Below are positions 1 to 37,940 of a stretch of 49,976 nucleotides of DNA, piece by piece. The stretch is from contig JAMOWA010000028.1 in assembly GCA_027061805.1 (NCBI GenBank), positions 1 through 49,976 of the forward strand, given 5' to 3'. A program made the position numbers and the translations under genes. A model generated the notes under the pieces. It was not told the origin of the DNA. It ran no database searches and saw only the letters and a list, made by a program, of their open reading frames with translations. Each line of letters begins with the position of its first letter. Positions within the stretch are counted from its first letter, which is position 1. The stretch comes from Thermoanaerobaculia bacterium. Its GTDB lineage: Bacteria > Acidobacteriota > Thermoanaerobaculia > Thermoanaerobaculales > Sulfomarinibacteraceae.

Positions 1-156
1 GGCGTCGGCGTCACCGTCGGCGTCGGCGTGATCGTCGGCGTCGGCGTGATCGTCGGCGTCGGCGTCACCGTCGGCGTCGGCGTGATCGTCGGCGTCGGCG
101 TCACCGTCGGCGTCGGCGTGGCCGTCGGTGTCACCGTCGGCGTCGGCGTCGCCGTG
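1..156 (-). repeat. 18-bp coding tandem repeat (Thr-Pro linker of PilY1-like gene)
   Basis: Seven 18-bp units at 1-126, then a 12-bp unit and one more 18-bp unit. On the minus strand each 18-bp unit encodes TPTPT followed by V, I or A. A second, shorter 6-bp version (about 986-1020) encodes the linker in front of the PA14 domain. Such linkers are usually extended and often O-glycosylated in secreted proteins. The array is cut by the window edge, so the copy number is unknown. Confidence 0.9.
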
Positions 157-2072: not shown

Positions 2073-2648
2073 CTAGTTGCAGAAGGTCACGGGAACGAAG
2101 TTGGACATGTCGAAGGGCCAGACGGTGACGTCCGCCTCCACGGCGGCCGCCGTGCTGCCCATGAGACCGCCCACGGACCGCACCGCCTCGGCCCGGATGT
2201 GGAAGAATCGCATCTTGTACTTCTGCTCCCACACCTGATTGTTCTCGATGATTGGTGATGGAGGTTCCGCCTCGCAGAGCTCCCGGACTGTCACCGTGTA
2301 CTCGCCGCGCAGCGGACCCGGGAGGTCCGGGTCATCGACCAGGATGAAGGATGTCCCGCCAGGGAAGGTGGCGGGATCCACCACGAAGCCCGACTGGATC
2401 ATCTGGATCTCCATCATGAGCCCCGCATCGGCCGCCGCGAGCGACTTCACGACCCAGCGGTCGGTCCCGCTGGCCTGGAGGCCCAGGGAGGTCTGGAGCA
2501 GCAGCCCCACACCCAGGAAGGCCAGGACGAGCGCCACCATGAGGGTCAGGATCAGGGCCGACCCCCGTTCGCCGGAGGGATTCACCGCTCCCGCTCCAGT
2601 CTGCACCACGGTCTTGCATGTCGTGTCCATCATCCTCGTCCTCGCCAT
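2073..2648 (-). CDS. pilX: PilX-like minor pilin
   Basis: 191 residues. After a short basic/polar leader comes ERGSALILTLMVALVLAFLG, a hydrophobic N-terminal helix of the PilX kind, followed by a segment ending SLAAADAGLM that matches the PilX N-terminal pattern (AAEAGL). PilX proteins join PilV, PilW and PilY1 in the priming complex at the pilus tip. The start ATG at 2648 shares one base with the pilW stop (TGATG), indicating translational coupling; an ATG five codons later is an alternative. It ends 9 bases before the pilY1 start. Only the N-terminal region is family-diagnostic, so the call rests on that and on gene order. Confidence 0.75.
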   Translation of the reverse strand: MARTRMMDTTCKTVVQTGAGAVNPSGERGSALILTLMVALVLAFLGVGLLLQTSLGLQASGTDRWVVKSLAAADAGLMMEIQMIQSGFVVDPATFPGGTSFILVDDPDLPGPLRGEYTVTVRELCEAEPPSPIIENNQVWEQKYKMRFFHIRAEAVRSVGGLMGSTAAAVEADVTVWPFDMSNFVPVTFCN

Positions 2649-3739
2649 CACAGAATGAAATCCCGCAGCGCCGCCTGGACCCTGAGCGCCCGCCACTTGG
2701 CCCGGCGGGCCGCCGCTCCCGGCGTCACCATGTTCTCCGCCCGGAAGGTCCTCAGGGGCTCGGTCCAGTCCATGACGGGGAACGGCGTCCTGCCAAGGAC
2801 CGTGATCCTGAGGGCCAGCGGCCTGTTGTTGGGATCACCGGCCACGGCGTTGCTGGGCCCGCCCGTGGTGACCTCGCTGTAGAACCACTCCGCGGGCTGG
2901 AGCTGGCGGTCCTGGTTGATGTCCAGCCCCAGGGCCACCTGGAGCGATCCGATGTTGACGGCCACCGGCTCCACGGATCCGTTGCCCGCGCCCGCCCGCC
3001 ACCGCATGAGCTGGAGGTCGGGGTCCACGAAGTAGTTGTAGGAATCCAGGATCCCCACGCGATAGACCTGGTAGGTGGGAGCTGACCAGGTGCCGCTCGG
3101 GTTGAGGGACTCCCAGAAGTCCCCGCCATTCCCGGTGAACTTGATGGTCAGCTTGTGGTTCTGGACCCCCGAGGGGGGGTTGCCCTCGTTGGTCTCCGTG
3201 ATGGCCGAACCCGACGCCACCGTGCCCACGACGTACTGGTTCCGGCCCATCAGGACGATGCCCTTGTTCTCGGGAGGCTCCAGGAGCCGCTGCTCCCGGC
3301 CGTTTGTGGTCCACTCCAGGACCTCCACCGTGCCGGACGAGACATTCACGCTCGCGGGCTGCACGAAGTATGGCGTGGCCTCGAAGAACCCCCGCAGGCG
3401 CAGCACGTCGCTGCCCGAGAGGGTGTCGTGGGCGTTGCCGAAGTCGTCATTGAAGGTGGTGCCGTTGTTGTCCACCACCTCCAGCGAGACCCACTGGAAG
3501 CCGGTGTCGTTGCGGGCCAGGGGAAGGTTCGTCCCCCCGCACATCCGGGCCGTCCTGACCAGGTGGTAGGCGGCGTACCGGACGTTCTCCTGGGTGTCGG
3601 CCAGGGCGGACTCCACCTTGGAGACCCTGGTGGACTGGTCCAGCAGCTGGAGGATGCCCACGAAGACCAGGGCGAAGACCACGATGGCCACCAGGAGCTC
3701 GACGAGCGTGAACCCGCGGGAGGGTTGTCGAGGATCCAT
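2648..3739 (-). CDS. pilW: PilW-like minor pilin, prepilin-type N-terminus
   Basis: 363 residues. The N-terminus MDPRQPSRGFTLVELLVAIV is a class III prepilin signal: short basic leader, Gly then Phe at the PilD cleavage site, and Glu at +5 of the mature protein. A hydrophobic helix and a coiled segment follow. Length and position between pilV and pilX match PilW, which helps initiate type IV pilus assembly. The stop overlaps the pilX start (TGATG), and the start lies one base after the pilV stop codon region. The C-terminal body has no motif I recognise. Confidence 0.83.
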   Translation of the reverse strand: MDPRQPSRGFTLVELLVAIVVFALVFVGILQLLDQSTRVSKVESALADTQENVRYAAYHLVRTARMCGGTNLPLARNDTGFQWVSLEVVDNNGTTFNDDFGNAHDTLSGSDVLRLRGFFEATPYFVQPASVNVSSGTVEVLEWTTNGREQRLLEPPENKGIVLMGRNQYVVGTVASGSAITETNEGNPPSGVQNHKLTIKFTGNGGDFWESLNPSGTWSAPTYQVYRVGILDSYNYFVDPDLQLMRWRAGAGNGSVEPVAVNIGSLQVALGLDINQDRQLQPAEWFYSEVTTGGPSNAVAGDPNNRPLALRITVLGRTPFPVMDWTEPLRTFRAENMVTPGAAARRAKWRALRVQAALRDFIL

Positions 3740-3740
3740 G

Positions 3741-4193
3741 TCAGCCCCCGTTCGGCACCTTCAGGGCCGTGGTCACGAACTCGCGGCGCCCCAGCAGCTG
3801 GGACCTGGTGGAGCGAACGTGGAGCGTCACCTTCTTCAGGTTGGCGGGAAGAGCCCCCGTGGGCGCCGGCCACACCGAGGTGTTCTGGACCTGGTTCCAG
3901 TTGAGGACCGAGAAGTCCTCGATGGCGTACCGCACCGTGATCCCGTCCGGCACCCCGATGGTCCAGTCGGCACCCGTCGTGGCATCGAGAAGGGGATCCG
4001 ACCAGGGGCGGGACTGGATGTCCTCCAGCACCTGGCGCGCCACGGCGGCCAGCCTGGCGTAGTCGTACCCCGAGGCGTTCACCACCACGGAGTGCGTGAA
4101 CAGACCCACGATCCCCAGCACCACAACGCCGAGGATCGCCAGCGCGATCAGCACCTCCAGCAGCGAGAAACCGCTCTCTCGCCTCGCTCGCAT
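3741..4193 (-). CDS. pilV: PilV-like minor pilin
   Basis: 150 residues starting MRARRESGFSLLEVLIALAI. This is a short basic leader, the Gly-Phe prepilin peptidase site and Glu at +5, followed by a hydrophobic helix, so it is exported and inserted as a pilin subunit. PilV connects the tip complex with the pilus fibre in other species. I chose the ATG at 4193 because it overlaps the upstream stop by one base (TGATG) and leaves an 8-residue leader; the upstream in-frame ATG (4226) would add 11 residues and lies inside fimT. Confidence 0.83.
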   Translation of the reverse strand: MRARRESGFSLLEVLIALAILGVVVLGIVGLFTHSVVVNASGYDYARLAAVARQVLEDIQSRPWSDPLLDATTGADWTIGVPDGITVRYAIEDFSVLNWNQVQNTSVWPAPTGALPANLKKVTLHVRSTRSQLLGRREFVTTALKVPNGG

Positions 4194-4807
4194 CAGTACC
4201 TCCAGTGCCTGAGCTCGGTGGTCCACCCGCCGGACCCGTCTGGCATCTCCACAATCACGGTCCCCGTCCCGCTGGCGATGGAGACCCTCACCACGTTCGA
4301 GTTCCCGTCGGTCAGGGTCACGGCGCCGTACCCGACGTCGCCGGCAGCGCTGGCCAGGACCACACCGTCCCTCCGGAACAGCACACCCTTGCTGCCGTCG
4401 GCCAGGGTGTGGAGCCGCCTCGTGGAGTCCTCGGCGATGGTGATGTCACCCGCCAGCTGCCGTTCCCAGACGATCCTCTCCCCGTCGTCGTAGGCCTCGT
4501 TGCCGTTGGAGTCCTCCCAGAGGCGGAAGACCGTCCCCGTTCCGGCCGCAAGACCGAGCACCACGGGGGTTCCCGCGCGGATGGCGTTGATCCGGCCCAG
4601 TGCCACGCCCTGGCGCAGGGTCCTCACCTGCTCCAGCATGTGGGCGCGGACCCTGGCCCGCCGCATGTTGGGGATGGCGATCACCAGGATGATGCCGATC
4701 AGGGTCACGACCACGAGAATCTCGATCAGCGTGTACCCGCGCTGCGCCCCGCGCCGTGCGGCCCCTCCGGCATACGTTCCCTGCAGACTCGTGTCCATCG
4801 CTGTCAT
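4193..4807 (-). CDS. fimT: FimT/FimU (GspH-type) minor pilin
   Basis: 204 residues. A leader of about 23 residues ends QRGYTLIEILVVVTLIGIIL: Gly-Tyr cleavage site, Glu at +5, hydrophobic helix. The body is a GspH/FimT-like beta-rich domain with an Asp/Asn-rich loop (WEDSNGNEAYDDGE). The start at 4807 has GGAG eight bases upstream; a second ATG three codons later is possible. First gene of the minor pilin operon. The 97-bp gap behind the glycosyltransferase holds an imperfect hairpin at 4890-4910 and an AT-rich patch at 4851-4869, but no promoter I can defend, so cotranscription with 4905-7265 is possible. Confidence 0.82.
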   Translation of the reverse strand: MTAMDTSLQGTYAGGAARRGAQRGYTLIEILVVVTLIGIILVIAIPNMRRARVRAHMLEQVRTLRQGVALGRINAIRAGTPVVLGLAAGTGTVFRLWEDSNGNEAYDDGERIVWERQLAGDITIAEDSTRRLHTLADGSKGVLFRRDGVVLASAAGDVGYGAVTLTDGNSNVVRVSIASGTGTVIVEMPDGSGGWTTELRHWRY

Positions 4808-4904: not shown

Positions 4905-7265
4905 TCACCGCCCACGGCCCAGCTGCCACACCCTGCCGGACGCATCCGCCAGGAACAGCTCACGTCCGGTCCATGCCACCCCGGTTGGCGCGACCCCCGC
5001 GGCACCCAGGTCCACACTGTGGACCACACCGTCCTCGACGATCACGAGCCGGCCCGCCGGCCAGTCCGAGGTCACCCAGAACCCCGGTGCCAGCACGGCG
5101 ATCTGGGGACGGGGGTAGGGATCCCGCCACGTGCCGGCCAGCTCCACCACCCGCCTGACCGAGCCGTCGCGGCCGAAGACCTGGATGCGGTGGTTCCCCG
5201 TGTCGCACACCACCAGCTCCCCGTCACCCTGCCAGGCCACACCCACGGGCTCCTGGAGCTGGCCGCGGCCCGAGCCGGCCTCTCCCAGCGTCCAGCTCCG
5301 GCGTGCGCCGGGTGCGTAGAGCACGATCCGGCGGTTTCCCGTGTCGGCCACCGCCAGCGTCCCGTCGGGCGCCACCGCCACCGACCTGGGCCCGTACCAG
5401 CCCCCCGGGGGCACCGGGAGCTCCCGGACCTTCCCGTCCGCGGGGTTGAACAGCAGCACCCGGTGGTTCCACGTGTCGGCCACCACCAGGACACCGCCGG
5501 GGGCCCAGGCCACGTCCTCCGGCTCCCTGAGGGTCTCGGGAACCGCCAGGTTGGCCAGCCGTCCCTCCCCGTCCAGGAAGGCGACCCGGGAGGCAGCAGT
5601 GTCCGCCACGGCGAGCCAGGTCCCACCCCAGGCCAGGCCGTGGGGTTCCCGGAGGAGGCCCTCGCCCCCCACCCGGGCCGTACGGACCCCCAGGCTCTCC
5701 TCGAGACCCGGGGGGGGTGGCACCGTCCGCCAGCTCCCCAGGGCCTCCTCCGAGCGGCGGAGCACCACCGTCTCCGCGAAGCCTATGGGGCTCCACGGTT
5801 TCCGGGTCACGAGGTAGGCGAGGAGCCGGGACACCGGGGGCCACGGGCCGTCCTCGGGGACCCACCAGGCCCTGAGGGGAATGCGCGTGGCCACATACCC
5901 CGGCCCCAGCCTCTGGAGAACCGCCTCCTCCTGGGCGGGATCGCACACCACCAGCGGCGGCCGCATGCCCGGCTGGGGCTCCCCCCACCACACCGGGACG
6001 TGCCGCCAGTACCAGGTCAGCGGCCACCCCGCCTCGCCCGGAACCGCCGCCACGGGGTCCTCGGTGCCCGCGAGGGCCAGGCCCTCCCGGACCACCTCCT
6101 TGAGCTCGGGACAGGTCTGCACGTAGACGAGTGACTCGACCCTCGGGAGCCTCGGTGAGATCTCGTCGTTGACGAAGGCGGCCGCCACGCCCGCCACCAC
6201 GGTGGCGGCGAGGCCCGCCCCCAGGACCACCCGGGGCACCCACCGTCCCTCCCGGGAGAAGGTCCGGGCGAGCGCGAGGCCCGCCAGCGGGATGAAGGCC
6301 CACACCTGGTGGACCTCCAGCCAGGGCGTCTTCTCCCCCAGCCAGGCGTACATGGCCACGGAGAGCACACCGACGGCGAGGAGGAACACCTCGAGCCTCG
6401 TCCGGCGCCCCCTGCGGAGCATGTACCACACCGCGGCGCCGAGGGGCAGGAACTCGTACTGGACGAGCCGGGGCAGGTGATACCACCACGGTCCGCTCAC
6501 CCGCTGGATGCTGTGCTGCTGCCACCAGTAGGTCACCGCCTTCACGGGAAAGGCCCAGTCGGCCGGCCACCGGAACCCCACCGTGTAGAGCGGCACGGCC
6601 ACCGCCACGGCCACGCAGGAGGCCGCCAGGATCCCGAAGGCGTGCTCCCGGAGCCACGCCACGGCCGCCGGAACCGATTCCCGGATCCCCTCCCGGATCG
6701 CCACCACACCGGCCGACGCTGCCAGGAGCACCCCCGTGACGTAGACGTTCTCCTTGGTGGCCAGGGCCAGCCCCGCCCACAGCCCGAGCCACAGCCAGGC
6801 CCGGGACGAGCCCTCCAGCACCCCCAGGAAGGCCACCAGGGCCGCCGAGGCGGTGACCGCCTCCAGCACGTCCATGCGCAGGAACCGGCCGTAGTAGAGA
6901 AAGATCGGCGAGACGGTGAAGAGGAGCCCCGTCCACCAGGCCGCTTCCTCGCCCAGCGTTCTCCGGAGCTCCCAGGCCACCCCCAGCATCAGGATCCCGG
7001 CCAGCGCCACCGGCAGCCGGGCCGTGAAGTCCGAGTCCCCCAGGATCAGGTAGGACGCGGCGGTCAGGTGGTAGAGCAGGGGCCCGTGGTAGGTGGGGTC
7101 GTAGCGGTACCGGCCCTGGTTGGCCAGGTCCCAGGAGAGCGCGGCGTGGATGGCCTCGTCGTGGTGGAAGCTCCGCTCCTCCAGCCGCCAGAGGTGGAGC
7201 CCCACACACAGGATCGCCAGCGCGATCCAGGCCAGCCACCGTCCGAGCCGACGCCGAGGAGCCAC
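4905..7265 (-). CDS. Agl23-like GT-C glycosyltransferase fused to NHL beta-propeller
   Basis: 786 residues. The first two thirds is a multi-pass membrane protein of the GT-C fold, closest by eye to the Agl23 family (TIGR03663). The diagnostic acidic loop after the first helix reads FHHDEAIHA (D36, E37). Residues about 537-786 form a soluble propeller with NHL-type blades; signatures such as VADTWNHRVLLF, VADTGNRRIVLY and CDTGNHRIQVF recur. GT-C enzymes use polyprenyl-phosphate-linked sugars and act on the outer face of the membrane, so the propeller is expected outside. GTG start; a TAGAGT -10-like hexamer ends six bases before it, so the mRNA may be leaderless. It lies directly upstream of the minor pilins on the same strand, so pilin glycosylation is a plausible but unproven role. 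Confidence 0.78.
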   Translation of the reverse strand: MAPRRRLGRWLAWIALAILCVGLHLWRLEERSFHHDEAIHAALSWDLANQGRYRYDPTYHGPLLYHLTAASYLILGDSDFTARLPVALAGILMLGVAWELRRTLGEEAAWWTGLLFTVSPIFLYYGRFLRMDVLEAVTASAALVAFLGVLEGSSRAWLWLGLWAGLALATKENVYVTGVLLAASAGVVAIREGIRESVPAAVAWLREHAFGILAASCVAVAVAVPLYTVGFRWPADWAFPVKAVTYWWQQHSIQRVSGPWWYHLPRLVQYEFLPLGAAVWYMLRRGRRTRLEVFLLAVGVLSVAMYAWLGEKTPWLEVHQVWAFIPLAGLALARTFSREGRWVPRVVLGAGLAATVVAGVAAAFVNDEISPRLPRVESLVYVQTCPELKEVVREGLALAGTEDPVAAVPGEAGWPLTWYWRHVPVWWGEPQPGMRPPLVVCDPAQEEAVLQRLGPGYVATRIPLRAWWVPEDGPWPPVSRLLAYLVTRKPWSPIGFAETVVLRRSEEALGSWRTVPPPPGLEESLGVRTARVGGEGLLREPHGLAWGGTWLAVADTAASRVAFLDGEGRLANLAVPETLREPEDVAWAPGGVLVVADTWNHRVLLFNPADGKVRELPVPPGGWYGPRSVAVAPDGTLAVADTGNRRIVLYAPGARRSWTLGEAGSGRGQLQEPVGVAWQGDGELVVCDTGNHRIQVFGRDGSVRRVVELAGTWRDPYPRPQIAVLAPGFWVTSDWPAGRLVIVEDGVVHSVDLGAAGVAPTGVAWTGRELFLADASGRVWQLGRGR

Positions 7266-7277: not shown

Positions 7278-7322
7278 CCGCGGGCCGCGGACGAGGGGAA
7301 GGGCACCCCCTCCACCCGCCCG

Positions 7323-7415
7323 GTGAAGAGGTGAAGACGTGAAGAGGTGAGGAGGTGAAGACGGCCCCCGCCCGTCCGGGAGGGGCAGGGGGGCAGGGAG
7401 GCAGGGGGGCAGGGG
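7323..7415. repeat. Composite repeat module A1: 8-bp array, core, G-rich array
   Basis: Five 8-bp units of the GTGAAGAG type (7323-7362) run into the core CGGCCCCCGCCCGTCCGGG (about 7362-7380). Four GGGGCAGG-type units follow (7382-7415). The core recurs exactly at 7535-7555, and reverse-complement relatives occur at 14790-14820 and 37871-37940. Confidence 0.85.
7382..7415 (+). other. Potential G-quadruplex-forming tract
   Basis: Five runs of three to six G are separated by loops of two to five bases (CA, CA, AGGCA, CA). This meets the usual G3+N1-7 pattern on the plus strand, upstream of the minus-strand Agl23-like gene. Confidence 0.55.
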
Positions 7416-7505
7416 AGAGTACCCGGCCGCTGCCGTGAGCCGCCGCCCGAAGCAAAGCGCCGCCAGGGCGGCGGCGCCGCGGTCCCATGAAGGTGAGTGA
7501 AGGGG

Positions 7506-7556
7506 GTCAGGACGTCAGGGCGTGAGGGCGTGGGGACGGCCCCCGCCCGTCCGGGG
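7506..7556. repeat. Composite repeat module A2
   Basis: Four 8-bp units (GTCAGGAC, GTCAGGGC, GTGAGGGC, GTGGGGAC; 7506-7537) are followed by the same GC-rich core as module A1 (7535-7555) and a GTGCAGGGGC tail. Order and period match A1. Confidence 0.8.
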
Positions 7557-7604
7557 TGCAGGGGCGAGGAAGAGAAGCCCGGAGAGGCCGGCGCGCGGAG
7601 GGGC

Positions 7605-7636
7605 GTCCTGACGTCCTAACGTCCTAACGTCCTTAC
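7605..7636. repeat. 8-bp tandem repeat, 4 units
   Basis: GTCCTGAC, GTCCTAAC, GTCCTAAC, GTCCTTAC in tandem. No interruptions or spacers. Confidence 0.9.
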
Positions 7637-7643
7637 CCTCTTT

Positions 7644-7672
7644 CGTTTCACGTTTCACCTTTCACGTTTCAC
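7644..7672. repeat. 7-bp tandem repeat (CGTTTCA type), 4 units
   Basis: Units CGTTTCA, CGTTTCA, CCTTTCA, CGTTTCA, preceded on the plus strand by CCTCTTT. The reverse complement of array plus flank (GTGAAACGAAAGAGG) is present at 37634-37648, so the array and its edge are shared between two distant regions. Confidence 0.9.
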
Positions 7673-7806
7673 GAATGGGCGCGCGGAGGGGCGCAGCCCC
7701 GGCGGGGTGCACGCGACGGGGCACCGGGCGCCCGCACCCGGGTGGACTGGAGCGGGCAGACCGGAGGCGCGGCCCGGCCGCGCCCCGCGCGCCACACCAC
7801 CACCGA

Positions 7807-7848
7807 CACGGACACGGTCACGGTCACGGTCACGGTCACGGTCACGGT
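7807..7848. repeat. 6-bp tandem repeat (CACGGT), about 7 units
   Basis: CACGGA/CACGGT units without interruption, 60 to 100 bp upstream of the plus-strand GT-C gene. The related reverse-complement unit CCGTGN forms arrays in regions B and C. Confidence 0.9.
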
Positions 7849-7906
7849 CGGAACCGGGAATCCCGCCGGTCCCATTCCCGGGTGGACGGACGGGAATCGT
7901 TCGGGC

Positions 7907-7918
7907 TAGGATCGCGCC
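7907..7918 (+). promoter_or_regulatory. Possible leaderless promoter (-10) of the plus-strand GT-C gene
   Basis: TAGGAT (7907-7912, fits TAnnnT) is six bases before the GTG start. Eighteen bases upstream lies TGGACG, a 4/6 match to a -35. The AGGA inside the same hexamer could instead serve as a Shine-Dalgarno, so leaderless initiation is not certain. Confidence 0.35.
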
Positions 7919-10183
7919 GTGACGAAGGACCAGGAACAGCGTTCGAAATCGGGTCACACCGGAGGATCCGGCGCCTCCGGAACGCTGCAACGGCATGTGC
8001 TGCCGGTGCTCGCCCTGGGGTTCACCGGTCTCTGTGCCGCGCTCCTGGCCCTGGTCCACGCCGACCGGGCGGCCGGGCGCGAGATCCTCGCCGTCCTCCA
8101 CGATCCCATGCTCCGCCTCGCCGTCCTGGGGAAGGCCCTCGTCGTGCATCACTCCCGGGTGACCACCGTGACCGCCGTGGTCTTCCTGGTTCTCGCGGCC
8201 TGGGCCGCGGCGGGCCATGTGGCACCGCCCCGCCGGGCCAGCAGGGCGATCCTCGCCGGGCTCGGCCTCTGCCTGGTGGGGCAGGGCGCCGTGGTGGTGG
8301 GCCGGACGGCCCCCGGAACGCTCCTGTGGCTCGTCGGCGCCGCCCTGACCCTGGCCGGGCTCGCGGGCCTCCGCAGGGCGGCCCCCCCGTCCTGGCGGCG
8401 GCTGACACCGCGGGTGGAGCCGGTGCTCGCCCGGGAAGTCGTGCTGCTCCTGGGGCTGCTCCTCGTGGCCGCCGCCTTCCGGTTCTTCATGCTGGACCAG
8501 GTCCCCAACCGCTTCGAGGGCGAGCTGGCGCCCTACTACGCCGCCGCCACGGACCTCTGGGGCATGTGGTGGGCGGACGCGGGGTGGCACGGGCCCTGGG
8601 CCCCTCTCCACCTCTCCTTCTACCTGCCCGTCTGGCTCACCACCCGGGTCCTCGGCACCAACGTCCTGGCCATCCGTACCGCCGCAGCGCTGGTGGGGCT
8701 CCTCTCGGTGTCCCTCCTCTGGGCCCTGGCCCGGCGCATCGGAGGACGCACGGCCGCCCTGGTGGCCACCGCCTTCTTCGTCCTCGACCCGCTCCAGGTG
8801 GGGTGGAGCCGGAGCGACGTCCACCCCCACGCCTCGACGCTCTGGGCTCCACTCCTGGTCTGCCTGGCGCTCCTCCACGCTCTGGACCGGCGAAGGCGGC
8901 GGGACTTCGCCCTCCTGGCCGTGGCCATGGGGCTCTCCTGGTACACCTACCCCTCGGGCGCCTCTGCCGTGGCCATCCCGGTGGTCTACCTGGCGGGTCT
9001 GGCCCTCTGCCGCCGGCGGGAGCTCCGCCAACTGGGGTTGCGCTTCCCTGCGGGCGTCGCGGCCGGCGTGCTCCTCTGGCTGGCCCAGCTCCCCCTGCCG
9101 TGGCTCCTGGTGGAGCGCCGCTGGTACGTGCCCGACCTGGTCCACCAGTTCGGGGCCCGGACGGCCTGGGATGCCGACGTGGGGATGTCGTTCTCCGACA
9201 CCACGCAGAAGATCGTCACCCTCGCCTGGTCCAACACCCTCCACCTGCTCGAGGGCCTCGTCCACAGGGTCCCGGAGATCACCCACCAGACCTTCCTCCC
9301 GCTGGTCAACTGGGCCGCCCCCAGGACGCTCGTCTGGTGGGCACTGCCTCTCGCCCTCCTGGGCCTGGGCGCGGCCGTGATCCTCCCCACGCTGCGACGG
9401 GCCCGGGTCGTCGTGGCGTGGGCCCTGGTGGCCGCCGTTCCCGCCATCCTGTCCTCCCACGGCTTCCCCAAGCGTGCGGCCACCCTCTACCCCGCCCTGC
9501 TGGTCCTTGCGGGCCTCGGGTTCGCCGTGGCGTGGGCCCGCCTTCCCCGGACCCGTCGCTGGCTCCGGGGGGCCGTGATCCTCACCGCCATCGCGGGATT
9601 TTCGGGTCTGTCGGCCGCCACCGCCTTCCTCTGGTTCTCCGGCGCGGTCTACACACCGGCCCATCCGGCCATGGAGACCAGCATGGAGGCACTGAAGTCC
9701 AGGATCCGGCCGGGCACCATCCTGGTGATGGACGGCTCCCACCCCTACACGCCCGGCATGACCACCTTCCTTCTCCTGGACGTCCTGGCCGACCCCGCAC
9801 GTCAGCCCGTGGCCTGGATCCCCGTCTACGAGGAGAAGGCCTCGTTCCCGGCCCTCCTGGAGGACCCCGTCCGGGGTGTCGACACCATCTCCAACACGCC
9901 CTGGTACATGTGGACCAGGCTCCGGCGGCTGGTCCCCCGCCTCCAGGCCACCCGGTGCTGGAAGAGGGTGGTCTTCCTCTTCCAGACCGAGGTGCACGAC
10001 GAGGCCCAGGAGCGGGTTCTCGACGACCTGGCCCGGGTCCTGGCCTGCCACCCCGAGGCCACCGTGGACGTCCTTCCCGGCCCCAACTCCGACTACACCT
10101 TCACGGTGGTGGAGTACCCCCTCCCGCCGTGTGGGGAACAGACCGGGGCCGACACCGGCGTGCCGACTCCACCCACGGACTGA
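7919..10183 (+). CDS. GT-C fold membrane glycosyltransferase (ArnT/PMT-like)
   Basis: 754 residues, GTG start. A hydrophilic N-terminal tail (about 25 residues) and three or four extra hydrophobic segments (to about residue 155) precede the GT-C core. The core's first outer loop carries the acidic motif MLDQVPNRFEGELAPYY (D193, E200, E202), typical of GT39/ArnT/PMT-like enzymes that transfer sugars from polyprenyl-phosphate donors outside the membrane. Several helices follow, then a soluble C-terminal region (about 560-754) with no family I recognise. It is divergent from the Agl23-like GT-C gene across repeat region A and convergent with the histidine kinase, with 52 bp between. Substrate and acceptor are unknown. 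Confidence 0.75.
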   Translation: MTKDQEQRSKSGHTGGSGASGTLQRHVLPVLALGFTGLCAALLALVHADRAAGREILAVLHDPMLRLAVLGKALVVHHSRVTTVTAVVFLVLAAWAAAGHVAPPRRASRAILAGLGLCLVGQGAVVVGRTAPGTLLWLVGAALTLAGLAGLRRAAPPSWRRLTPRVEPVLAREVVLLLGLLLVAAAFRFFMLDQVPNRFEGELAPYYAAATDLWGMWWADAGWHGPWAPLHLSFYLPVWLTTRVLGTNVLAIRTAAALVGLLSVSLLWALARRIGGRTAALVATAFFVLDPLQVGWSRSDVHPHASTLWAPLLVCLALLHALDRRRRRDFALLAVAMGLSWYTYPSGASAVAIPVVYLAGLALCRRRELRQLGLRFPAGVAAGVLLWLAQLPLPWLLVERRWYVPDLVHQFGARTAWDADVGMSFSDTTQKIVTLAWSNTLHLLEGLVHRVPEITHQTFLPLVNWAAPRTLVWWALPLALLGLGAAVILPTLRRARVVVAWALVAAVPAILSSHGFPKRAATLYPALLVLAGLGFAVAWARLPRTRRWLRGAVILTAIAGFSGLSAATAFLWFSGAVYTPAHPAMETSMEALKSRIRPGTILVMDGSHPYTPGMTTFLLLDVLADPARQPVAWIPVYEEKASFPALLEDPVRGVDTISNTPWYMWTRLRRLVPRLQATRCWKRVVFLFQTEVHDEAQERVLDDLARVLACHPEATVDVLPGPNSDYTFTVVEYPLPPCGEQTGADTGVPTPPTD

Positions 10184-10235
10184 ACGGCCCCCACGCCTCG
10201 CACCCTTCGCTCCGGCCCCTCCCGGACGATCCGGA

Positions 10236-12626
10236 TCAGGACACCAGCGCACCGAGGAGGCGGTCCGCCTCCCCGGGGTCCAGGGGCAGGATGCCGGTGG
10301 CCGCGAGGCCGGGGGATGTCCATCTGCCCCCGGGAGGAACCTCCGGTGCCACCAGCAGCACGGTGGGAATGCCGGCGGACTCCACGGCCCCGGCGAGGTC
10401 CGCCCCGTCCGTCCCACGCTGCACCAGGACGATGCCCTCCGGCTTCCAGCCACGGACCGCTCTCGAGACCTGCTCGGGTGTGGCGGCATGCCGGAGCTCC
10501 CCCACCCGCCCAGAGAACACCTCGGCCACCGGACCCACCCCTCTCCCGTCGGCGTCCACCAGGAGCAGGCGCCCCAGGGCTGGGCGGCCGCTCGCCGGGA
10601 CCGGCTCCAGCTCCTCGTCCCCCACGGTCCCGGTGGCCCGCGGGAACCGCAGCGTCATGCAGGTACCCTGCCCGGGCGCCGAGTCCACCAGGACATCGCC
10701 ACCGTGCTGCTGGACCACGGCGTAGACCACGGCCAGGCCGAGCCCGGCTCCCCGGCCCTCCCGGCGCTGGGACCAGAAGGGCTCGAACAACCGCTGGCGA
10801 ACGTCGGAGGGGATGCCCGATCCGTTGTCCCGGACCCTCAGGATGGCCCACTCCCCACCCTCCTCCACCGTCACCGTGATCCGGCCGGTGGGAGGCTCCA
10901 CGGCGTCCCGGGCGTTGAGCACGAGGTTGAACAGTGCCCTCCGGAGGCCCACCGGCGACGCCTCCACCGGCACCTCCCCCTCCGGTGTGTCCACCTCCAG
11001 GTGGATCCCCTCCGGGAGGAGGTTCGAGAGCAGGGGTTCCTGCGAGCGGACGAGCTCCGCGAGGTCCACCCTCCGGGCCGGCGTGCTCTCCCGCCGGGCG
11101 AAGAGGAGCAGCTCCCCGACCACCTCGATCCCCTCCTCCGCCAGCCGGCGGATGGCCGCCAGCGTCTCCGCATCACCCTCCCCGTGCTCCAGGAGCCGGA
11201 CGTGGAGCAGCACGCCCGTGAGCAGGTTGTTGAAGTCGTGGGCGACCCCTCCGGCCAGCGTGGCCACCGCCTCCATCTTCTGGGCCTGCCGGAGCCGCTC
11301 CTCGGCCTCGAGCTCGTCGGTCACGTCACGGACCACGAGCACCCGGTGGTCGCCGCTGGTGGACGCCGTGAGGGTGCAGTGGAGCGTCCTGCCCCCGGAC
11401 CGGACCTCCCACTCCTGCCTCCCGTCCCCGGCCACCCTGCGGCGAAGCTCCCCGGCGAGCGTCCTCAGGTGGGACGCCAGGGCACGGTTGCTCTGGGTCA
11501 CCGTCCCGTCGGCCCGGACCAGGGCCACACCGTCCTGCATCTCGTCGAAGGTCCGCTGCCACCTGTGCTCCAGGGCCCTCAGCCGGTCCGTGAGGTCGTG
11601 GAGGGCCACCAGCAGGTGGGGGCCGTTCTCCCCGTCCACCCTCCGGATCCGCAGCTCCACCCGGGCCGCCCCGCCGCCGGGCAGCCGCCAGGTGCGCTCG
11701 AGGACACTCTCGCCGTTCGCCCCCTCCGGCAGCAGCAGCCCGTCCTCGCGGCGGTCGCCATCCGCCCCCACGAGCTCCTCGAGACGGGGAGGTTCACCAT
11801 CGGCGGGGTTCAGGTAGGGAGCCGCCGCGGGGTTGGCGCGCCGGAGCACACCCTCCGCGTCGAAGAGGAGGAGCGGGCTCGGGGAGCTCTCGAAGAGCTC
11901 GCGGAAACGGCGCTCGCTCTCCACCAGCGACCGCCGCTGGAGCGCGAGGCGCCGGGCCATCTGGTGGAAGGCGGAGGTGAGCTCCTCCACCTCCCGGGTC
12001 CCCCGGGGGCCCCCGGGCTCGGGAACCGGATCCCCGGGATGGAACACGGCCATCCTCTCGGCAAGCTCCTTCAGGGGGGAAGCCACCCTCTCGAAGATCA
12101 TCGCTCCCACCAGGAGCGCCACCGCCAGGGCCGCCGCGAGACCCAGCACCAGCCGGAGGCCCGAGCGCAGCACGTGGACCCGGATCCGGGAGGTGGAGGC
12201 CGCCGCCATGACGGTGATCTCCCCGCCCCCGCCGGACGTGATCACCTCCTCCACCTGGAGGAGGTCGGTGCCGGTGCCCACCACGTCGGGCGAGCCGAAC
12301 TGCCAGATCACGGTACCGTCCGGCCCCACGATCCTGGCCCAGCGGAGCTCCGGAACCCCTCCCAGCGGCACGCGCGAGGCATTGCCGTCCTCGGCCGCCG
12401 CCATGGCCAGGAGGTGGGCCAGGGCCCGGGTCCGTCCCTCCAGCTCACGGGTCAGGAAACGGGATTCGTCCAGGAGGACCAGGGCGCTCGTGAGGATGAG
12501 GACCAGGACCAGGACCCCCACGAGCCACACGAGGGCGAGGCGGGAGAGGGAGAACCGCGCGAGCCCCCTCGGAGATCCGCTGCGGCCCGGGCGTGTTCCG
12601 GGGTCGTCCCCGTTCACCGTGTCCAC
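10236..12626 (-). CDS. Membrane sensor histidine kinase with two PAS-like domains and a pseudo-receiver
   Basis: 796 residues. Transmembrane helices at about 30-52 and 155-178 bracket a roughly 100-residue outer sensor; HAMP about 180-232; two PAS-like domains about 240-350 and 353-440. The HisKA H-box [13 protein letters not shown] holds the phospho-accepting H463. ATPase boxes: N ([11 protein letters not shown]571), G1 (RDNGSGIP, D600), F (LFEPFWS) and G2 ([10 protein letters not shown]), all intact. The C-terminal 686-796 segment looks like a receiver (RLLLVDAD), but the expected beta-3 phosphorylation Asp is replaced (GIVLVQRG, Gln) and the conserved Lys is absent, so it is probably not phosphorylated. 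GTG start one base after the YbjN-like stop. No response regulator gene is nearby. Confidence 0.87.
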
Positions 12627-12627
12627 C

Positions 12628-13137
12628 TCAGTTGGGAGGGCCGTCGTCCCCCGCCTCGGGGGATTCCTCCTCCGACTCCAGCTCCTGCCGCAGCTTCTCC
12701 AGAGAGGTCATGCCACCCCAGCGGGCGATGATCTCCGGGGCGTGCTGGGCCGAGGCGCCCGCCACCACCTGGATGGCGAGCCGCACCACGTCGGGGGTGA
12801 CCGAGGATCCCAGCACCGTGTAGTCGAAGCAGACGTCGGAGTCCTCGTCCAGGGAGAAACCTCCGAACACCTGGTCCGCGTTGAGCCGTGCCAGGTACTC
12901 CCCCAGCTCGGCATCCGGCCTCTCCACGTCGCGGACCAGGTAACACCTCACGTTGAGCAGCGCGTCGTCTCCCAGGGGACTGCCCACCAGGAAGACCACC
13001 GCCCCGTCCTCCACCCGCATGAAGGCCTGGTCGCCCCACCTGTAGAAACCGTCGGGGCCGTAGAGGGACTCGAGCTCGTTGCCCACCAGCTCCAGCACCC
13101 TGTCGAGGACCGCGTTGCCCGCAGATTCGTCCGTCAC
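12628..13137 (-). CDS. YbjN-like (type III secretion chaperone-like fold) protein
   Basis: 169 residues, soluble, acidic. The pattern of alternating short strands and a long C-terminal helix (FDYTVLGSSVTPDVVRLAIQ then HAPEIIARWGG) resembles the YbjN / T3SS-chaperone-like (TY-Chap) family; no catalytic residues are evident. The last 25 residues are a Glu/Asp/Pro-rich tail. GTG start overlaps the upstream stop by four bases (GTGA). Fourth gene of a five-gene operon ending in the histidine kinase. YbjN-like domains are thought to mediate protein interactions; what this one binds is unknown. Family call is by eye and moderate. Confidence 0.6.
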   Translation of the reverse strand: MTDESAGNAVLDRVLELVGNELESLYGPDGFYRWGDQAFMRVEDGAVVFLVGSPLGDDALLNVRCYLVRDVERPDAELGEYLARLNADQVFGGFSLDEDSDVCFDYTVLGSSVTPDVVRLAIQVVAGASAQHAPEIIARWGGMTSLEKLRQELESEEESPEAGDDGPPN

Positions 13138-13511
13138 CCGCGATCCTCCCCCTCGTCGCCCGGACCGGGTTCCGCCTCCAGTGCCTCGTCCCGCTCGGCC
13201 AGCAGGTCCAGCGCGCGGTCCAGGTCACCGGCGGGCACCTGGACCTCGATGATGGAGAGCTCCCCGAGGGTCGTCACGAGCTCGCTGTCGCTCCGGTCCA
13301 GGAGACGGACGGGGAACCCCTGCTCCAGGAGGAAGCCCTCCACGATGGCCGCCGTGGCGCGGTCACCGACCTCCTCCACGGTCACCCAGTCCGTGGGATC
13401 CCACTCCGGCTCGGTCTCGGAAGGCAGCTCGTCCACGAGCGCCTTCCCGCACTCGGGGCACACGGTCACCCCCTCGCGATACTCGGACCGGCAGAGGGGG
13501 CACCATGCCAC
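13134..13511 (-). CDS. Zinc ribbon + DUF2007 protein
   Basis: 125 residues. The N-terminus begins with a zinc ribbon: C4-x2-C7 and C18-x2-C21 (WCPLC, VCPECG). A DUF2007-like alpha/beta domain follows at about 45-110 (AIVEGFLLEQGFPVRLL, then VQVPAGDLDRALDLL), a family labelled putative signal transducer. The tail is acidic. I chose the GTG at 13511 because GAGG lies five bases upstream and it leaves the ribbon at the N-terminus; the longer frame (from 13559) would add a Ser-rich stretch inside the upstream gene. The stop overlaps the next start (GTGA). Confidence 0.72.
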   Translation of the reverse strand: MAWCPLCRSEYREGVTVCPECGKALVDELPSETEPEWDPTDWVTVEEVGDRATAAIVEGFLLEQGFPVRLLDRSDSELVTTLGELSIIEVQVPAGDLDRALDLLAERDEALEAEPGPGDEGEDRG

Positions 13512-13518
13512 CTGGACC

Positions 13519-13839
13519 TCACTCGAACTCGAAGAACTCGCCCTCGAAGACGTCCGCAAGCTGGCGCGTGATCACCGAGGAGAGGCCGGCGGCGAGCCCC
13601 GCCACGATGGACGAGCCACGGGTCCGGCCCAGCAGGTACCCCGTGACGCCCACCGCCAGCACCGATCCCACGGGGTGCTTCCGGACCGTTCCCCTCCAGT
13701 CGATGGAGGACGGGATCAGGGTATCCAGGATGACGTCGGCATCCAGCCCCTTCGGCTCGGCCTGCTCCCTGCCCGGACTCCCGGGAGCCGTCCCCGGGGA
13801 AACGTCGTTCAGTGGCGCATCGTCCATGCTCATCTCCAT
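13519..13839 (-). CDS. Small glycine-zipper membrane protein of unknown function
   Basis: 106 residues. The first 45 are acidic and Pro/Gly-rich; residues about 57-95 form two hydrophobic segments with small-residue spacing (GSVLAVGVTGYLLGRTRG, SSIVAGLAAGLSSVI). The first resembles the C-terminal anchor of the preceding gene product (GKAVLIGLAVGFLAGYLTR), suggesting related membrane anchors or partner packing. ATG at 13839 has GGGAG six bases upstream. It ends 7 bp before the zinc-ribbon gene start. No family recognised. Confidence 0.6.
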   Translation of the reverse strand: MEMSMDDAPLNDVSPGTAPGSPGREQAEPKGLDADVILDTLIPSSIDWRGTVRKHPVGSVLAVGVTGYLLGRTRGSSIVAGLAAGLSSVITRQLADVFEGEFFEFE

Positions 13840-13852
13840 GGGCAGCTCCCGC

Positions 13853-14389
13853 TCAGTCCCGGGGACGCGTCAGGTATCCCGCCAGGAACCCCACGGCCAG
13901 GCCGATCAGAACCGCCTTGCCGGGATTCTCCTGGACGTACTGGATCACCTGGTCGCCCTTGCCCTTGAGGTCCATCTCGGCCACCCTTTCCCGCACCCTG
14001 CCGTAGGCCTCCCTGGTCTTCTGGGAGAGCGCCTCGTACTGGGCCTGGCTCTTCTCGTAGAGGGCCTGGGCCTGCTCGCGCGTCCTCGCCGCCGTGGCAG
14101 CCGCCCGCTCACGGGCCACCGCCAGGTGCTTCCGGGCCTCCTCGAGGTAGACCTTCGCACGCTCCGCAGCCTCCTTCGAGACGTCACGGGCCTTGCCGTA
14201 GGTGTCCTGCAGGGTGACACGGGCCTTGTCCATGGCCTCCTGGGCCTTGGCCAGGGACTCCTTCACCCTGGACAGCTCCTGCTCGTCCACCACCCCGGCA
14301 TCCGCAGCCACATCCCTGGCGGTCTCCTCCACGGCCCCGGCGACCTCGTCGATCGCCTCGTCCACGCTCCTGGTCTTCTTCTGCGCCAT
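13853..14389 (-). CDS. DUF883/ElaB-like coiled-coil protein with C-terminal membrane anchor
   Basis: 178 residues. Residues about 1-150 are charged, Ala/Glu/Lys/Arg-rich and predicted helical/coiled coil (repeats of A-x2-A with K/R/E). The C-terminus is ENPGKAVLIGLAVGFLAGYL plus TRPRD, the glycine-zipper anchor typical of DUF883 (ElaB/YqjD) proteins, which attach to the inner membrane and in E. coli bind ribosomes in stationary phase. This protein is longer than those (about 100 residues). ATG at 14389 follows GGAGGTGG. First gene of the five-gene operon reading toward the histidine kinase; the operon promoter must lie in repeat region B. Confidence 0.7.
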   Translation of the reverse strand: MAQKKTRSVDEAIDEVAGAVEETARDVAADAGVVDEQELSRVKESLAKAQEAMDKARVTLQDTYGKARDVSKEAAERAKVYLEEARKHLAVARERAAATAARTREQAQALYEKSQAQYEALSQKTREAYGRVRERVAEMDLKGKGDQVIQYVQENPGKAVLIGLAVGFLAGYLTRPRD

Positions 14390-14698
14390 CTGCCACCTCC
14401 GGTTCTCTCGTGCTTCAGCTTCGATTCTACGCCCTTCCGCTCCATGCGTCCACAGGAGAGCCTCCCCCGCCCCCTCGAGCCCGGTACGGGCGCCCTGCCG
14501 GCTCCGGTTCGGCCGATGCAGCACAAGGGGGATGGCTGTCCAGTGAACCAGGACAGGCCCAGGCACCGTGACGGCGGCCCCCGGGGGCAGCTGACGGCGG
14601 CGGTTCGCGGCGGCGGATGGCGGCAACCGTCTGCAGCCACGACGCCTCGGAACGCACCCCTGCACCCCCGCTCCTCTGCCCGCGACCCTGTCCCCGTC

Positions 14699-14820
14699 CC
14701 TGACCCTGACCGTGGCCGTGGCCGTGACCATGTCCGTGACGGGTACTCCCCCTCACCCCTGCCCCCCTGCACCCCCGCTCCTCTGCTCCTCCCGGTTGGG
14801 CGGGGGACGTCCTCACGGCT
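14699..14820. repeat. Composite repeat module B (reverse orientation to A)
   Basis: Read on plus: degenerate 6-bp CCGTGN/CCCTGA units (14699-14740), then CCCCTGC-type units (14747-14798), then the core TTGGGCGGGGGACGTCCTCAC (about 14800-14818). This is the order seen on the minus strand in module A1, with a less regular tail. Confidence 0.7.
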
Positions 14821-14906
14821 GGCCATGATCATGGACAGGGACACGATCATGGACGAGGCCGCGGGCAGGAACAGGGTCGTGGCCGGGTCCCTGGCCCCGA
14901 CCCCGT

Positions 14907-14936
14907 CCGTGCCCGTGCCCGTGCCCGTGCCCGTGA
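14907..14936. repeat. 6-bp tandem repeat (CCGTGC), 5 units
   Basis: Four CCGTGC units and one CCGTGA. Same unit class as the arrays at 7807-7848 (reverse complement) and 37730-37759. Confidence 0.9.
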
Positions 14937-14965
14937 CTGTGCCGGTGTGGCGCGCGGGGGCCGCC

Positions 14966-15011
14966 CTCACGCCCTCACGCCCTCACCTCTTCACTTCCTC
15001 ACTTCCTCACC
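14966..15011. repeat. 8-bp tandem repeat (CTCACNNC), about 6 units
   Basis: CTCACGCC twice, then CTCACCTC, TTCACTTC, CTCACTTC and CTCACC. It runs directly into GGGCGGGCGGGGGG, which resembles the module core, just upstream of the MBL RNase. Confidence 0.88.
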
Positions 15012-15055
15012 GGGCGGGCGGGGGGATACAGTACGATGGCACCCGGAGGCTATGC

Positions 15056-16450
15056 ATGAAGATCACCGTCCTCGGCGCCGGAAGGTGCGTCACCGGTTCC
15101 AAGTACCTGCTCCAGTGGAAGCACCACGCCGCGCTCGTGGACTGCGGGTTGTTCCAGGGTCCCGCCGAGAACCGGCGGCGCAACTGGAAGCCGCTGCCCT
15201 ACCCCGAGCACCGCCTCGGTGCGGTCGTTCTCACCCACGCCCACATCGACCACTCCGGGTACCTTCCCCGGCTGGTCCGGCAGGGCTTCCGCGGTCCCAT
15301 CCACTGCACGCCACCCACGGCCGCGCTGCTCAGGGTCCTCCTTCCCGATGCCGCCCATCTCCAGGAGGAGGAGGCCCGCTACGCCAACAAGAAGGGGTAC
15401 TCCAAGCACAGGCCGGCCCTGCCCCTGTTTCGCCTGGCCGACGCCAAGGCAGCCCTCCGCGCACTGGAGCCCGTACCCTTCGGGGAATGGGTCGACCTGA
15501 ACCCGGGAGTGAAGTTCCGCTACCACCGCCAGGGCCACATCCTTGGCGCAGCCGCCGTGGAGGTCGTCACGAAGGTCTCCGGTGGCCAGCACCGCTCGGT
15601 CTACTTCTCCGGCGACGTGGGCCGCTACGGCGTCCCCATCCTCAGGGAACCGGAGTCCTACCCCGGCTCCGACGTCCTGTTCGTGGAGACCACCTACGGC
15701 GATCGCCTGCACGACCGCCGGGATCCCTACAGCGTCCTGGCCGATGCCGTGAACGCCGGGATCAGGCGGGGGGGCGTGATCCTCATCCCGGCCTTCGCCG
15801 TGGATCGCACCCAGGAGATCCTCTACATCCTCCACGAGCTCATGGAGAGCGGGGAGGTCCCGGAGATCCCCATCTTCCTGGACAGCCCCATGGGGATCGA
15901 GACCACCGCGCTGTACTCGCGGTTCGTGGAGGAGCACGACGCGGAGATGCGCGAGTACTTCTCCGAGGGCAAGAACCCCATCTTCCCCCCGAACCTCACG
16001 GTGACGCGCTCCACGGCGGAGTCCAAGAAGCTCAACCACGTGGACGGTCCCGCCATCATCATCTCCGCCTCGGGCATGGCCACGGGCGGCAGGATCCTCC
16101 ACCACCTCAAGCTCCGCCTCCCCGACCCCCGGAACACCGTCCTGTTCGTCGGCTACCAGGCCCAGGGGACCAAGGGGCGCCGCCTGGTGGAGGGTGAACC
16201 CGAGATCAAGATCCACGGCGGCTGGATCCCGGTCAGGGCCCACGTGGACTCGCTGGGGGCCTTCTCCGCCCACGCCGACCAGGAGGAGCTCCTGGTCTGG
16301 CTGAAACGCCGGAAGCGCGAGCCCTCCACCGTCTGCCTGATCCACGGGGAGCTCCCGGCCCAGGAAACGTTCGCGGATCTTCTGAAGAAGGAGCTCGGAT
16401 GGGAGACGCTGATTCCCGAGATCGGGGACGAGATCGACCTGAGCCGCTGA
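15056..16450 (+). CDS. MBL-fold/beta-CASP RNA-processing nuclease (CPSF73/Ysh1-like)
   Basis: 464 residues, full length for the family. Metallo-beta-lactamase motif HAHIDHSG (H61, H63, D65, H66), further ligands H161 and D187 (SGDVGR), beta-CASP motifs around FLDSPMG and SASGMATGGR (about 337-346), and the C-terminal H406 in SAHADQ plus H430 in LIHGE. This is the RNA-specific branch (bacterial relatives of CPSF73 and RNase J), expected to cleave RNA with two zinc ions in the cytoplasm. ATG at 15056 has GGAGG six bases upstream. The last 52 bases overlap the YihY-like gene. Confidence 0.9.
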   Translation: MKITVLGAGRCVTGSKYLLQWKHHAALVDCGLFQGPAENRRRNWKPLPYPEHRLGAVVLTHAHIDHSGYLPRLVRQGFRGPIHCTPPTAALLRVLLPDAAHLQEEEARYANKKGYSKHRPALPLFRLADAKAALRALEPVPFGEWVDLNPGVKFRYHRQGHILGAAAVEVVTKVSGGQHRSVYFSGDVGRYGVPILREPESYPGSDVLFVETTYGDRLHDRRDPYSVLADAVNAGIRRGGVILIPAFAVDRTQEILYILHELMESGEVPEIPIFLDSPMGIETTALYSRFVEEHDAEMREYFSEGKNPIFPPNLTVTRSTAESKKLNHVDGPAIIISASGMATGGRILHHLKLRLPDPRNTVLFVGYQAQGTKGRRLVEGEPEIKIHGGWIPVRAHVDSLGAFSAHADQEELLVWLKRRKREPSTVCLIHGELPAQETFADLLKKELGWETLIPEIGDEIDLSR

Positions 16451-37379: not shown

Positions 37380-37605
37380 CCACCCCGCGGCCGGATTCCG
37401 CCCATTTCCCCGGCGCCGCCGGGCCGGAGCCCACCGGCGGCACGATCCGCAGCGCCCCGCCACCGGACGGAGGGGCGCGACGCGGGGACGACCCCCGCCA
37501 TCACTGTCGTGGAACGTGAAGCATGAAACGTGAAACGAATGAGGGACTTCCGGTGTGCATGTCACGGATGGGTGCGGGATGTTCGCCCCCGCCACCCCGC
37601 TCCTC

Positions 37606-37640
37606 GTGAAACGTGAAACGTGAAACGTGAAACGTGAAAC
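37606..37640. repeat. 7-bp tandem repeat (GTGAAAC), 5 perfect units
   Basis: Five uninterrupted GTGAAAC units, then GAAAGAGG. The reverse complement of this array and its flank occurs at 7636-7672. A degenerate pre-array lies at 37514-37534 (ACGTGAA, GCATGAA, ACGTGAA). Confidence 0.93.
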
Positions 37641-37729
37641 GAAAGAGGATACGAAATCGTGTGACGATCCGCCCCGGGACGACGGCCGTCTCCGTCACCG
37701 TCGCTCACCCCTGCGCCCCTGCTCCCTGC

Positions 37730-37759
37730 CCGTGTCCGTGTCCGTGTCCGTGTCCGTGA
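37730..37759. repeat. 6-bp tandem repeat (CCGTGT), 5 units
   Basis: Four CCGTGT and one CCGTGA, preceded by CCCCTGC-type units and followed by CCCTGTCCCCGGCCCTGG. Same unit class as regions A and B. Confidence 0.92.
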
Positions 37760-37870
37760 CCCTGTCCCCGGCCCTGGACCTGGCCCTGGCCCCGGTCGTA
37801 CCCCCGACTCCGCCCGAGGCAGCCCCGGCCGGGTTTCACTCTTTCCCCATCCTCCACCCGCCTCCCTCCG

Positions 37871-37940
37871 CTCCCCTGCTCCCCTGCTCCCCGGGCGGGT
37901 GGGGGACGTCTTCACCTCTTCACCTCTTCACCTCTTCACC
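37871..37940. repeat. Composite repeat module C
   Basis: Read on plus: CTCCCCTG units (37871-37892), the core CCCGGGCGGGTGGGGGACGTC (37890-37910), then TTCACCTC units (3.75 copies, 37911-37940). It matches module A1 in reverse complement, block for block. It ends 4 bases before the T-run of the rpoC terminator. Confidence 0.9.

Follow-up and report, generated by a model that had tools for sequence, protein, structure and literature searches.

A putatively composite gene row in Thermoanaerobaculia with a conserved pair of predicted membrane anchors and a histidine kinase neighbouring minor-pilin/PilY1 genes

Introduction

ElaB and YqjD of E. coli carry the features of tail-anchored proteins, as described in the excerpted text of PMC5525287. 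In Pseudomonas, the DUF883-YqjE operon PA3040-3042 is linked to envelope stress in passages of PMC11302039; it is the nearest described case that we found for the membrane pair analysed below. FimS-AlgR controls the minor pilin and PilY1 genes of Pseudomonas and is in turn under feedback from them (excerpts of PMC5979040). Proteins of the YbjN family have a type III chaperone-like fold and act by protein-protein contact, according to partial texts of PMC5398634 and PMC10948618. DUF2007 appears in neither title nor abstract of the four open-licence papers found to name it.

Here we analyse five genes (A to E) from a genome of the class Thermoanaerobaculia, Acidobacteriota (assembly size 3.1 Mb). 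The window, that is the whole stretch of DNA analysed, comprises bases 1-49976 of its contig. The row is best explained as a composite operon of several modules and not as one five-part machine. We tentatively propose, at a little short of an even chance, that the minor-pilin/PilY1 cluster next to the row is sensed or controlled by kinase E, which would act as FimS does without belonging to its family, and that A-B is a separate and older pair of membrane proteins of the YqjD/ElaB type. A search of open-licence papers returned no described function for the A-B pair and no match that combined DUF883, operon and Acidobacteri.

Genomes and gene maps

The window's family is designated f1, and a second family within the same order f2. 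Relatives are mostly fragmentary metagenome assemblies, and their gene maps were built from our own profiles. Mapping covered the B loci of the window and of 49 relatives from the class (20 loci in f1, 16 in f2, 14 in other families); of the class genomes that B had matched in the phylum search, only some were taken.

Organization of the gene row

The genes run on the minus strand from 14389 to 10236 in the order A, B, C, D, E (Table 1). Coordinates of the ORFs confirmed the packing described in the earlier note, with gaps of 13, 7, −4 and 1 bp. All five ORFs have homologues in relatives and are therefore not chance ORFs. A scan of positions 9900-15200 detected a single promoter-like site, located upstream of A (mean for shuffled sequences 0.0), and no terminator-like sites; the search for RNA elements found a single tRNA and nothing else. 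RBS-like sequences, as judged by eye, are clear before A, B and D and weak before C and E.

The row is partly common to relatives, so the neighbourhood is conserved beyond the source genome. The five-gene whole, however, is contiguous in only 3 of the 20 f1 loci (G000, G004 and G007).

Table 1. Features of the gene row and of the pilin region in the window
Feature	Position	Strand	Description
Promoter-like site	14424-14452	minus	35 bp upstream of A; consensus match only
Gene A	13853-14389	minus	178 aa; long charged helical protein, single membrane segment at the C-terminus, DUF883_C-like tail anchor
Gene B	13519-13839	minus	106 aa; acidic N-terminus, DUF883_C-like membrane helix, second glycine-rich helix
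Gene C	13134-13511	minus	125 aa, GTG start; zinc ribbon + DUF2007
Gene D	12628-13137	minus	169 aa; YbjN / TY-Chap1 family
Gene E	10236-12626	minus	796 aa; predicted membrane histidine kinase: TM ~30-50 and 154-178, weak HAMP, PAS, HisKA, HATPase_c
C-terminal receiver-fold domain of E (pseudoreceiver)	10239-10610	minus	without phosphoacceptor Asp
Convergent glycosyltransferase gene	7919-10183	plus
PMT_2 glycosyltransferase-NHL protein	4905-7205	minus	in many f1 relatives stands between kinase and pilin genes
GspH-like minor pilin	4193-4807	minus
PilV-like minor pilin	3741-4193	minus	N_methyl; PilV name from position and size
PilW-like minor pilin	2648-3739	minus	N_methyl; PilW name from position and size
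PilX-like protein	2073-2633	minus	by position; no Pfam match
PA14 protein, PilY1-like start	3-2063	minus	VWA-like start by eye; cut by contig start

Kinase E and the minor-pilin/PilY1 genes

In the Pfam search E matched HATPase_c (99.4 bits, cut-off 26.4), PAS_8 (36.2, cut-off 21.8) and, slightly below threshold, HisKA (26.7, cut-off 26.9). The phosphoacceptor His box AHDFNN is present in all 15 aligned homologues; judged by this box and HATPase_c, E is a sensor histidine kinase. About 100 periplasmic residues separate its two predicted membrane helices. The closest named kinases in NCBIfam (VirA-like and CckA) match far under cut-off and were rejected as assignments. FimS/AlgZ is of the His_kinase (PF06580) type, and Pfam gave no match of E to PF06580 at an E-value ≤1; by its catalytic region, with HisKA and HATPase_c instead of PF06580, E would not be of the FimS/AlgZ type.

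No separate response regulator adjoins E, as the earlier note had stated; the C-terminal receiver-fold domain, which lacks the phosphoacceptor Asp, had been overlooked. The last 124 residues of E are predicted to adopt a receiver fold (pLDDT 79.5), and the model matched nine PDB entries at E-value ≤0.001, all of them response-regulator receivers (TM 0.63-0.69). The Asp at the end of receiver strand 3 is absent in all 10 aligned E-type domains, as read at the sixth/seventh residue after the P of a W-x-P motif (one row without the P was read in register). By this residue, E is predicted not to be a hybrid kinase with a phosphoaccepting receiver. Three f1 kinases (L029, L034 and L035) have no C-terminal receiver-fold domain, and two (L022 and L025) no PAS region. 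The sensor region of E (aa 1-239) was matched in 18 of 20 f1 genomes, the misses being G001 and G016, and in 2 of 17 f2 genomes, where the matches are weak and partial. The contig of G016 stops after B.

According to the earlier note nothing linked the row to a known pathway. This claim has to be withdrawn: of the 14 f1 genomes with contigs long enough, 13 carry minor pilin/PilY1 genes downstream of A-B (G000, 001, 002, 005, 006, 007, 008, 009, 010, 012, 013, 014 and 017; G008 is counted on a partial pilin match where its contig ends), while G003, 011, 015, 016, 018 and 019 were not judged. The one exception, G004, has A-B-C-D-E without pilins downstream. In the window E is separated from the pilin genes by the convergent glycosyltransferase gene, so E and the pilins do not make one transcript there. 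A counterpart to the order leading to the PA14/PilY1-like gene of the window was seen in L145 and L146.

Gene E adjoins A-B(-C)(-D) in 15 of the 20 f1 maps. G005 and G010 have the order A-B-(C)-E-glycosyltransferase-pilins-two PilY1-like proteins, with the whole run on one strand. The order in G009 and G013 is A-B-(C)-D-pilins-PilY1-E (PilY1 of G013 passes PF05567, with 33.4 bits against a cut-off of 28.1), and in G008 PilY1 and E are together on another contig; E thus remains close to PilY1 also in genomes where it does not adjoin A-B. G001 has A-B beside pilins, with no E. Pilins were found by A-B in none of the 16 f2 maps. Three f2 minor-pilin/PilY1 clusters (L147, L149 and L150) are located elsewhere in the genome with no match to an E-like kinase, so such clusters do not need E. 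Among the gene-neighbourhood links of E, that to the minor-pilin/PilY1 cluster has the best support.

A neighbourhood can be conserved without a common function. A-B could be a housekeeping membrane pair, with the kinase and the pilins brought next to it by lineage-specific synteny and read-through transcription, which we consider rather unlikely yet worth serious weight. The beta-CASP RNase and YihY genes upstream of A-B are likewise conserved neighbours throughout f1 and f2, and C, D and the kinase vary while A-B remains, as synteny of this kind would have it. Against it stand the three genomes named above in which E follows PilY1 away from A-B, as well as the kinase linkage, seen in 16 of the 19 loci with C and in none of 30 other DUF2007 loci, the latter being the best of a longer match list.

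The putative A-B membrane pair

The domain assignments of the earlier note were upheld, with A slightly below the Pfam cut-off for DUF883_C (26.5 bits against 27) and the zinc ribbon of C sub-threshold, its CxxC...CxxC pattern being apparent in the sequence. DUF883_C was matched at E-value ≤0.01 by 20 of 26 A homologues; the DUF883 N-terminal domain (PF05957) was matched by one of the 26 (E-value 0.0095) and not by A of the window. The sole hydropathy peak of A, at residues 156-174 of 178, indicates a single C-terminal membrane anchor.

B matched no Pfam family above cut-off. Among its homologues 12 of 31 matched DUF883_C at E-value ≤1, and profile-profile comparison of A with B revealed a common membrane segment (23 columns, probability 83%), which bears out the similarity noted earlier. 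Both results favour a DUF883_C-like helix, and the description of B as an unrelated glycine-zipper protein was dropped. Ahead of the membrane helix B has the conserved segment (L)DAD-ILD--VP-IDWR--VRRHP; in the homologue alignment further invariant positions lie outside the membrane segment, and the acidic-aromatic C-terminus is conserved as well. A low-confidence structure model of B (mean pLDDT 66, too poor for a structure-search query) has a disordered start and helices at 34-41, 48-54, 56-74 and 76-102, two of them long.

B was detected in 47 of 59 relatives (f1 20/20 including the window's genome, f2 16/17, other families of the class 11/22). The B alignment matched 31 of 297 genomes in the phylum sample; among the 33 matches listed, 27 are from the same class or nearer and four are weak matches outside the class (E-values 1.5e-4 to 3.4e-4), which were left out of the B count. 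The 32 B loci in named genomes are from Acidobacteriota; many of these genomes bear the label Thermoanaerobaculales or Thermoanaerobaculia, Ca. Sulfomarinibacter and Thermoanaerobaculum among them, and the class of the window's genome was assigned from these labels. A immediately precedes B, on the same strand, in all 50 mapped loci (f1 20/20, f2 16/16, outside the order 14/14), which were chosen by B alone and, as the genomes are kin, do not represent independent events. Outside f1 and f2, YihY is found upstream in four of the 14 loci and the beta-CASP RNase in two, and A-B is kept in all; the pair thus outlives its surroundings. A-B is best seen as an old, separate unit of the class, a predicted membrane pair of the YqjD/ElaB (DUF883) type whose members may bind each other.

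If A-B were a ribosome-tethering or envelope-stress pair like YqjD/ElaB, the remaining genes might merely use its promoter. The DUF883_C-like tail on both A and B fits this explanation, as does the Pseudomonas operon, a tightly spaced pair-plus-one tied to envelope stress in the available text of PMC11302039. Given, however, that A falls just short of the DUF883_C cut-off and that the N-terminal model is found in a single A homologue, we think it quite unlikely.

C, D and the kinases beside C

C passes the DUF2007 (PF09413) cut-off (34.7 bits versus 25.7), and D passes two, TY-Chap1 (PF22551; 42.5 versus 27) and YbjN (PF10722; 35.1 versus 22 bits). Sequence searches against solved structures gave no significant match for either protein. 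Judging by their families, both are probably small cytosolic proteins, adaptors or peptide-binding helpers. Close relatives of D occur in 6 of 20 f1 genomes, each time within the gene row. Viral spread of D was considered and rejected, as the IMG/VR scan returned no relative in viruses.

Of the mapped loci, 7 of 20 in f1, 8 of 16 in f2 and 4 of 14 in other families contain C. A kinase follows C on the same strand in 6/7, 7/8 and 3/4 of these, respectively; in f1 this kinase is the histidine kinase E, and in the loci of f2 and of the other families it is of the Ser/Thr type. The f2 kinase of L044, counted here, is in pieces. In the 30 comparison loci, one of which (L130) is from the same class, no histidine or Ser/Thr kinase was found within ~1.5 kb on either side of DUF2007. 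DUF2007 as a generally kinase-linked gene was thereby ruled out for these loci elsewhere in the phylum.

In G021 a pair of C and Ser/Thr kinase is located apart from A-B (its C is below the DUF2007 cut-off, at 20.8 bits). A-B and C-kinase are therefore two units, often but not always co-located. G021 is congeneric with G023, a genome with a contig labelled Thermoanaerobaculum. An ortholog of the Ser/Thr kinase is retained elsewhere in the f1 genomes G001, G012, G016 and G018 (50-58% identity). A simple swap of kinases has to be qualified on both counts, the persisting ortholog and the G021 pair lying off A-B.

It is conceivable, if improbable, that A-B-C forms a membrane-anchored signalling platform that exchanges kinases of two unrelated superfamilies (Ser/Thr in f2 and other families, histidine in f1), with C as the common adaptor and D as a peptide-binding helper, and that f1 recruited this platform to control type IV pilus priming.

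Discussion

In the reading that we prefer, with E acting on the minor-pilin/PilY1 cluster, the head of the row would be A-B, small inner-membrane proteins anchored through their common DUF883_C-like helix. E, joined in f1 to the type IV minor-pilin/PilY1 cluster, would sense the state of minor pilins and PilY1 or the surface contact that they report, and would pass phosphate to an unlinked response regulator that sets expression of the cluster. The C-terminal pseudoreceiver may modulate E instead of taking phosphate. A-B, presumably co-expressed, might gather the complex into clusters or hold it at the membrane, a role that would not be specific to pilin function.

One dedicated membrane sensing complex of all five proteins, as the earlier note had supposed, is very unlikely: the tight packing, the single promoter-like site, the lack of an internal terminator and the contiguity of the five genes in G004 and G007 too would suit it, but the complete row occurs in 3 of 20 f1 genomes only, and the ranges of E and B differ.

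Two leads follow, a class-wide pair of putative membrane anchors and a kinase tied through gene order to pilus-tip genes in a family of uncultured Acidobacteriota. If C indeed serves both histidine and Ser/Thr kinases, an adaptor can outlive its kinase, and DUF2007 would gain a role.

Comparison with known systems

With YqjD/ElaB of E. coli and PA3040-3042 the row shares a small, putatively tail-anchored protein (A) with what may be a glycine-rich helix of the DUF883_C type, in a tight operon that also encodes another small membrane protein. It differs in that A is under the DUF883_C cut-off and has no recognisable DUF883 N-terminal domain, and in that B has a DUF883_C-like helix of its own, a second helix and conserved motifs.

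As with FimS-AlgR of Pseudomonas aeruginosa, a membrane histidine kinase is tied to a set of minor-pilin/PilY1 genes. Unlike FimS, E combines HisKA and HATPase_c with PAS and a pseudoreceiver; no regulator lies beside it, and its tie to the pilin set is one of gene neighbourhood alone.

D resembles YbjN, AmyR and DR1245 (TY-Chap1) in passing the cut-offs of both families and differs in that its operon also encodes a tail-anchor pair. C is like other DUF2007 proteins by its family match, whereas it is fused to a zinc ribbon and, in most C loci of Thermoanaerobaculia, followed by a kinase.

Contig boundary and intergenic repeats

The PA14/PilY1-like gene at the left end of the window is cut by the contig start (Table). 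Judging from L145 and L146, two loci in relatives that give the counterpart gene order, the next gene should encode a 1273-aa PilY1-like protein; such a gene is located close to one end of contig C54, and the window's contig and C54 are therefore probably neighbours.

Table. PilY1-like genes at the contig ends
Feature	Position	Remark
PA14/PilY1-like gene	window 1-2063	truncated by contig start
PilY1-like protein, 1273 aa	L151:6865-10686	near contig C54 end

Short tandem arrays with recurring units of 6, 7 and 8 bases form islands in three intergenic gaps of the window (7322-7849, 14654-15025 and 37605-37940). The first two islands are mutual inverted copies (65 nt at 83% and 68 nt at 79%).

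Surroundings of the paired anchor genes in other genomes

In L060, L093 and L095, loci from some of the class's other families, the gene immediately 3′ of B, the second of the paired small membrane-anchor genes A and B, is metallophosphoesterase-like (by eye, GNHD motif). In L044, a locus of another family of the window's order, the Ser/Thr kinase adjoining A, B and the zinc ribbon-DUF2007 gene C is split into several pieces (about 7752-8997 of the oriented map), as if decaying.

In three loci from beyond the class, L102, L103 and L104 (L104:5543-5899), a weak B-like match is found ∼0.5 kb downstream of an A-like match of DUF883 type. A small membrane protein, YqjE-like by eye, is encoded between the two in L104; this A-like, YqjE-like, B-like order is possibly the ancestral arrangement.
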